Assembly (NCBI GenBank): GCA_947644195.1
Contig: CANRZB010000001.1
Span: 1-64,000, forward strand
Reading direction: 5' to 3'
Length of the DNA: 64,000 bases
Source: an uncultured Clostridium sp.
GTDB lineage: Bacteria > Bacillota > Clostridia > Lachnospirales > Lachnospiraceae
Part shown: positions 7,995 through 8,804 of the stretch, one piece after another
How positions within the stretch are numbered: the first letter of the stretch is position 1
Layout: every line of letters starts with the position of its first letter
The notes under the pieces: model-generated
The model's database searches: none
Seen by the model: only the letters and a program-made list of their open reading frames with translations
Told to the model about the DNA's origin: nothing
Translations under genes and position numbers: made by a program

Positions 7995-8804
7995 TTACTG
8001 TTGATTCATTGCATCTGGTCCATCCTCCTCTGTCGCATCTATCACGCTGGAATCAACACCCAGCTTCGGCAGCTTTGAGGTCAGAATATACTTTCCGATA
8101 ATATCCTCACGGCCAGCACAGCCAACATATCGACTGTCATAAGAGATCTCATACTGGTCTCCCAGGAAAAAATATTGATTTTTCGGGACAGTCAATTTCA
8201 AATTCTCCGGATTTTTTTGATAACTTTCCGTTGCACCGATTCCATCATAACGTGGATCAATGCTTCCATTGACAGATAACTGCCCTTTTTTTATTTCAAT
8301 CACATCTCCCGGAATTCCTACAACCCGGTATAAACCATACAGCTGACCGGAATCCATTTGTAACATAACAATATCCCCTCGCCGAGGGCCATGCAGGAGG
8401 TAAGAAAGCTTGGAAACTAAACAGTGATCCCCATTCACAATTTTAGGTTCCATATTATCCCCTGCCATGATCAAATCTTGAAAACTCATCTGATAGGCAA
8501 GAAACAGGCTAACCGTCAACAAAATCCCTAAACAGATATTCCGCACCTTTCTTTTTTTCAATCTTTTGGAAACAGCTTGATACCTTCCCCTCTCCTCGCT
8601 TTCCTCTCCAGATAATGACACCTCTGTTTTTCTTATTTTCTGTGAATACCAGGCTGCTATCTCTTTATTTTTCTTTTGACAGGCAGGGCAATTCTCCAGA
8701 TGATCTTTGATAATTTTCTCCGTCTCTTTCCCAATATTGTGCTCCTGATACAACGGCAATAATTCTTCAATCAAAACACAATATTCCTTTTGCTTATCTT
8801 GCAT
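7995..8804 (-). CDS. Zinc-finger (anti-sigma type) domain fused to a signal-peptidase-I-like domain lacking the catalytic dyad
   Basis: N-terminal HLENCPACQ (Hx3Cx2C), one TM (NICLGILLTVSLFLAYQM), then SPase-I-like GDNMEPKIVNGD, RGDIVMLQM, LYRVVGIPGD, YFFLGDQYEISYDSRYVG. Confidence 0.85.
   Translation of the reverse strand: MQDKQKEYCVLIEELLPLYQEHNIGKETEKIIKDHLENCPACQKKNKEIAAWYSQKIRKTEVSLSGEESEERGRYQAVSKRLKKRKVRNICLGILLTVSLFLAYQMSFQDLIMAGDNMEPKIVNGDHCLVSKLSYLLHGPRRGDIVMLQMDSGQLYGLYRVVGIPGDVIEIKKGQLSVNGSIDPRYDGIGATESYQKNPENLKLTVPKNQYFFLGDQYEISYDSRYVGCAGREDIIGKYILTSKLPKLGVDSSVIDATEEDGPDAMNQQ

Follow-up and report, generated by a model that had tools for sequence, protein, structure and literature searches.

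A putative zinc anti-sigma factor whose signal peptidase ectodomain has lost its catalytic dyad in an uncultured Clostridium

A 64,000-nucleotide stretch of DNA from an uncultured Clostridium sp. of the order Lachnospirales, here called the window, encodes a protein that appears to be a class I anti-sigma factor equipped with a sensor of a new type. Its outer part is probably a protein-cutting enzyme turned sensor. The reading favoured here, with moderate confidence, is that of a membrane zinc anti-sigma factor which uses a retired signal peptidase (SPase) ectodomain to sense a signal and releases the linked sigma factor. The first-pass annotation, partly supported here, had proposed a membrane anti-sigma factor with a repurposed signal peptidase, and the architecture, the linked ECF sigma factor and the dyad-less ectodomain agree with that proposal, which is strengthened by four further fusions and a shared promoter-like element. 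The domain make-up, the sequence-based topology, the loss of both dyad residues, the sigma-linked family and the shared element have direct support, and the case for an anti-sigma factor, as judged from sequence, is strong; we infer the sensor role of the S26 ectodomain and the identity of its ligand.

Domain architecture and membrane topology

The fusion gene (Table 1) has an ECF sigma gene, pyrI and an ABC transporter gene as neighbours. Searched separately, as the first-pass annotation had suggested, the zf-HC2 and Peptidase_S26 profiles each score above their Pfam cut-offs, zf-HC2 at residues 12–43 (E 2.8e-6, 27.7 bits, cut-off 22.2) and Peptidase_S26 over the ectodomain (E 3.3e-28, 99.2 bits, above the curated cut-off). 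The NCBIfam model of signal peptidase I, TIGR02227, gives 104.9 bits against a cut-off of 47, so that an annotation pipeline using this model would label the protein signal peptidase I. Both catalytic residues were tested and found to be missing, and for this reason the protein, which is homologous to signal peptidase, is not classed as one here. The quality of the AlphaFold model is moderate to mediocre (mean pLDDT 61, with the Ser loop below 50), and its Foldseek matches at E<=0.001 are exclusively signal peptidases or SipA.

The N-terminal Hx3Cx2C motif noticed in the first reading is present as H35x3C39x2C42 within a zf-HC2 domain that exceeds its cut-off. C9 is an addition to this motif: like H35, C39 and C42 it is invariant across the five fusions, which completes a four-ligand zinc site. 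The predicted topology is likewise that of one transmembrane segment followed by an SPase-like ectodomain, as had been described. Seven Lys or Arg residues precede the only hydrophobic segment and none follows it, which predicts an N-in/C-out orientation with the zinc domain inside and the S26 domain outside. By the same kind of prediction, all five fusions have one hydrophobic segment with positive-inside charge.

Table 1. Features of the fusion locus and loci of the related fusions
Feature	Position in window or locus	Strand	Basis or remark
Anti-sigma/pseudo-signal-peptidase fusion gene	7995..8804	(-)	Intact ORF, 269 aa; Pfam zf-HC2 and Peptidase_S26; four homologous fusions
Zinc anti-sigma (ZAS) site, residues 9-42 (C9, H35, C39, C42)	8679..8780	(-)	zf-HC2; four residues invariant in 5/5 fusions
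Single transmembrane segment, residues 90-108, predicted N-in	8481..8537	(-)	Hydropathy and K/R count
Signal peptidase I (S26) ectodomain, residues 94-240	8085..8525	(-)	Pfam; PDB sequence matches; Foldseek
Codon AAT, Asn117, catalytic Ser column	8454..8456	(-)	Complement of 8454-8456; alignment columns
Codon TAC, Tyr159, catalytic Lys column	8328..8330	(-)	Complement of 8328-8330; alignment columns
ECF sigma factor gene, 167 aa	7420..7923	(-)	Directly downstream of fusion gene; Pfam Sigma70_r2 and r4_2
ECF-type promoter-like element TTGTAACCTTT-N13-TACTAA	8883..8912	(-)	78 nt upstream of fusion gene
Sporanaerobium hydrogeniformans fusion	L002 = L045		Lachnospirales by NCBI taxonomy
G520 fusion	L060
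G461 fusion	L061
G896 fusion	L119		Another family of class Clostridia

A patchily distributed family of fusions

A search of about 1,200 Clostridia genomes, in which the large runs scored the best few candidates per genome, revealed four further fusions, and the total of five is a minimum. A scan of the genome collection with patterns from two sequences gave the Sporanaerobium protein as the sole true fusion. No full-length orthologue occurs among the 27 other members of the genus, which rules out genus-wide conservation, and no plasmid-borne relative covering 80% of the query was found. The distribution of the fusion is thus patchy. All five loci have an ECF sigma gene adjacent on the same strand. 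Gene order differs, the fusion gene preceding the sigma gene in the window and Sporanaerobium and following it in the G520, G461 and G896 loci.

The catalytic dyad and other conserved positions

The codons given in the first-pass annotation for a Ser to Asn and a Lys to Tyr change were correct. When the protein is aligned with 130 dyad-bearing SPases of the retrieved loci, Asn117 and Tyr159 occupy the two catalytic columns, which in that set are 100% Ser and Lys by selection. The letters at the Ser and Lys positions are N/Y in the window protein, S/Y in Sporanaerobium, G/K in G520 (where the loop is one residue short), S/V in G896 and S/K in G461. At least one dyad residue is therefore gone in four of the five fusions and both are gone in the window protein, while G461 has both intact. 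The claim of a dead enzyme accordingly holds for the window protein and fails as a description of the family, which the G461 fusion keeps from being defined by it; in the lineages other than G461 the dyad residues appear to have been lost piecemeal. Since Tyr at the Lys column is common to the window protein and to Sporanaerobium, a member of another genus, a local mutation or sequencing error at this position was rejected. The Ser to Asn change is unique to the window, with AAT one base from AGT, and here a local mutation or sequencing error could still be the cause.

The other hallmark positions of S26 have mostly survived. Outside the dyad, 29 positions reach at least 80% conservation in dyad-bearing SPases; 22 of them are retained by the window protein and 24 to 26 by each of the other four fusions. 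All five retain M118, R160, F212, G215, D216, D223, S224 and R225, and GD...DSR of box E is kept in the window protein. The box E Arg (GDNR; column of residue 218), which is found in 93% of dyad-bearing SPases, is absent from every fusion, G461 with its intact dyad included, and Ser221 is lost in Sporanaerobium. A tree of 80 S26 domains, which rests on few columns and has many open forks, does not reject a grouping of all five fusions in one clade (p-AU 0.97); the tree constrained in this way was the better one. The end branches are long for the window protein (1.46), Sporanaerobium (1.15) and G896 (1.7), as against about 0.7 for G520 and G461 and a median of 0.33. Combined with the dyad states, these branches suggest at least three separate losses, one in the window protein with Sporanaerobium, one in G520 and one in G896, if the intact state is ancestral.

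Other signal peptidase genes in the host genome

A dyad-bearing SPase beside rnhB (L147:1456-3321(-), G000:C35) is likely to be the housekeeping LepB and lies at the end of a frame with a charged, coiled-coil-like N-terminal extension of several hundred residues. A second, separate pseudo-signal peptidase is encoded near this lepB (L148, G000:C35:33366-33827) and is also present in most genus relatives with a captured locus (L004-L030). Across these proteins Lys is replaced by Glu, Gln, Ala or Asp and Ser, where the box is visible, by Tyr, Glu, Asn, Asp or Gly; box E has a signature like LCDNRNxGEDSRNANxGN. Its conservation across the genus implies that it is probably functional.

The linked sigma factor and its promoter-like element

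The adjacent sigma factor named in the first reading is a linked ECF sigma gene on the same strand. Its product is SigM-subfamily-like, scoring under the TIGR02950 cut-off, and is 44–48% identical to the sigma factors adjoining the Sporanaerobium, G520 and G461 fusions. The closest of the other sigma factors in the family have as partners zf-HC2-TM proteins whose C-terminal parts are unrelated, implying that the S26 domain occupies the usual slot of a sensory domain.

TGTAAC and TACTAA separated by 17 bp occur upstream of the window, Sporanaerobium, G520 and G461 operons, and the G896 upstream region has TGAAAC...GGTAGTC instead. The longer element TTGTAACyTTT-N13-TACTAA is common to the window, G520 and G461 operons, with one mismatch in Sporanaerobium. 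The full pattern with a spacing of N12-14 was found nowhere else in 267 retrieved loci, a set that takes in 59% of the host genome. In a motif scan of these 2.02 Mb of host sequence, the operon's own promoter is the best match (21.3), and the next (19.3) lies inside a gene. Matches at threshold number 74, against 90–97 in shuffled sequence. The scanned 59% therefore gave nothing convincing as a regulon beyond the operon itself, and no secretion or SPase regulon. The pattern is consistent with a sigma/anti-sigma pair that is autoregulated and, in the part scanned, has a narrow regulon.

Comparison with known systems

The window protein resembles class I zinc anti-sigma factors (ASDI/ZAS, zf-HC2, such as RsiW and RsrA; PMC7406223) in its N-terminal cytoplasmic Hx3Cx2C motif, single transmembrane helix, adjacent ECF sigma gene and C-terminal, here putative, sensory domain, but differs from them in having a signal peptidase I fold in the sensory slot. 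In a survey of class I anti-sigma factors, the C-terminal domains were usually sensory and showed conservation within groups (PMC7406223). No published example of the anti-sigma/SPase-fold architecture was found in the open-access literature.

SipA of Streptococcus pyogenes (PMC4049620; PDB 4n31, 4k8w) is likewise an SPase I fold without the catalytic Ser and Lys, having Asp and Gly in their place. It is a precedent for a dead SPase with a working cleft, as its peptide cleft is intact and pilus polymerisation depends on it (PMC4049620). An anti-sigma domain is absent from SipA, however, and the window gene adjoins a sigma gene; a SipA-like pilus role was rejected on gene context, as no pilin or sortase gene lies beside the window gene. 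The RsiV and RsiP systems of Bacillus (PMC4183432, PMC8844934) are a second precedent, as they join SPase and ECF anti-sigma control in one pathway, and RsiV is itself the receptor. In those systems the SPase is a separate active enzyme, whereas here the SPase fold lies inside the anti-sigma factor and is inactive by sequence.

Proposed mechanism and alternatives

In the favoured reading, the cytoplasmic ZAS domain would hold the neighbouring ECF sigma factor, and the outer domain would be a sensory module that has kept the signal peptidase I fold, and probably the peptide-binding cleft, and no longer cuts. A peptide-like ligand, which may be an unprocessed preprotein, a signal peptide or a peptidase-binding lipopeptide, would occupy the cleft, and the anti-sigma factor would then let go or be degraded, perhaps by regulated intramembrane proteolysis. 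Signal peptides or unprocessed preproteins, as a report of secretion stress, were the possible input put forward in the first-pass annotation. No site-2 protease was found by a strict motif scan over 59% of the host genome. The freed sigma factor would transcribe its own operon from the promoter described above. In BlaR1/MecR1-type beta-lactam receptors, an enzyme-derived extracellular domain is the receptor for what the enzyme binds, though with another fold and another output, a protease acting on a repressor rather than a sigma factor. By analogy, a more specific and rather doubtful extension is that the retired SPase is a one-component receptor for SPase substrates or for inhibitors such as arylomycin-like lipopeptides and is coupled without intermediates to an ECF sigma factor, which would extend the BlaR1 principle to the secretion machinery. 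The favoured reading is weakened by the intact dyad of G461, the restriction of the Ser to Asn change to the window, the lack of targets beyond the operon itself in the 59% scanned and the small, patchy set of five members.

The main rival, judged rather unlikely, is a built-in site-1 protease. The ectodomain would originally have been an active SPase, and in some members still be one, whose target is a partner or the anti-sigma chain to which it belongs, so that one chain joins what RsiV/SipS and RsiP/SipP split between two; dyad-less members would rely on a separate SPase. It draws on the Ser and Lys of G461 in an otherwise similar protein, on the two dyad-bearing SPases of the host genome and on the role of SPase as site-1 protease for RsiV and RsiP (PMC4183432, PMC8844934). 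Against it, both residues are missing from the window protein and one from each of three other fusions, and inspection by eye shows no obvious AxA-like site after the transmembrane segment of the window protein. It may apply to G461, and in view of this one intact homologue the ancestor may have been self-cleaving.

The long branches bear on another alternative, as they could reflect relaxed constraint and not a new role. The S26 domain may be a passive relic that merely anchors and exports the C-terminus, with the signal read elsewhere, for example by zinc-site chemistry in the cytoplasm, and a dyad that decayed since it was no longer important. This is thought unlikely. The long end branches of the Lys-less members, the loss of different residues in different lineages, the absence of Ser221 in Sporanaerobium and the absence of the box E Arg in all five are as it would predict, but most structural hallmark positions have survived deep divergence, and no domain-less member was found in searches that would not have recognised one. 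Improbable is a dead SPase domain that pairs with or competes against active SPases and so reports on or regulates them directly: besides the fusion, the host genome does encode two SPases with the dyad and, near lepB, another dead one, but there is no sign of pairing, and bacterial SPase I is generally regarded as monomeric.

Biological significance

Databases are likely to list similar fusions as 'signal peptidase I'. Because its five members range from an intact dyad through a single remaining residue to none, the series is a natural experiment on the change from protease to sensor. If the retired-peptidase sensor reading is true, the window protein would sense signal-peptide processing in Gram-positive bacteria directly, as a processing enzyme that was made into a receptor.
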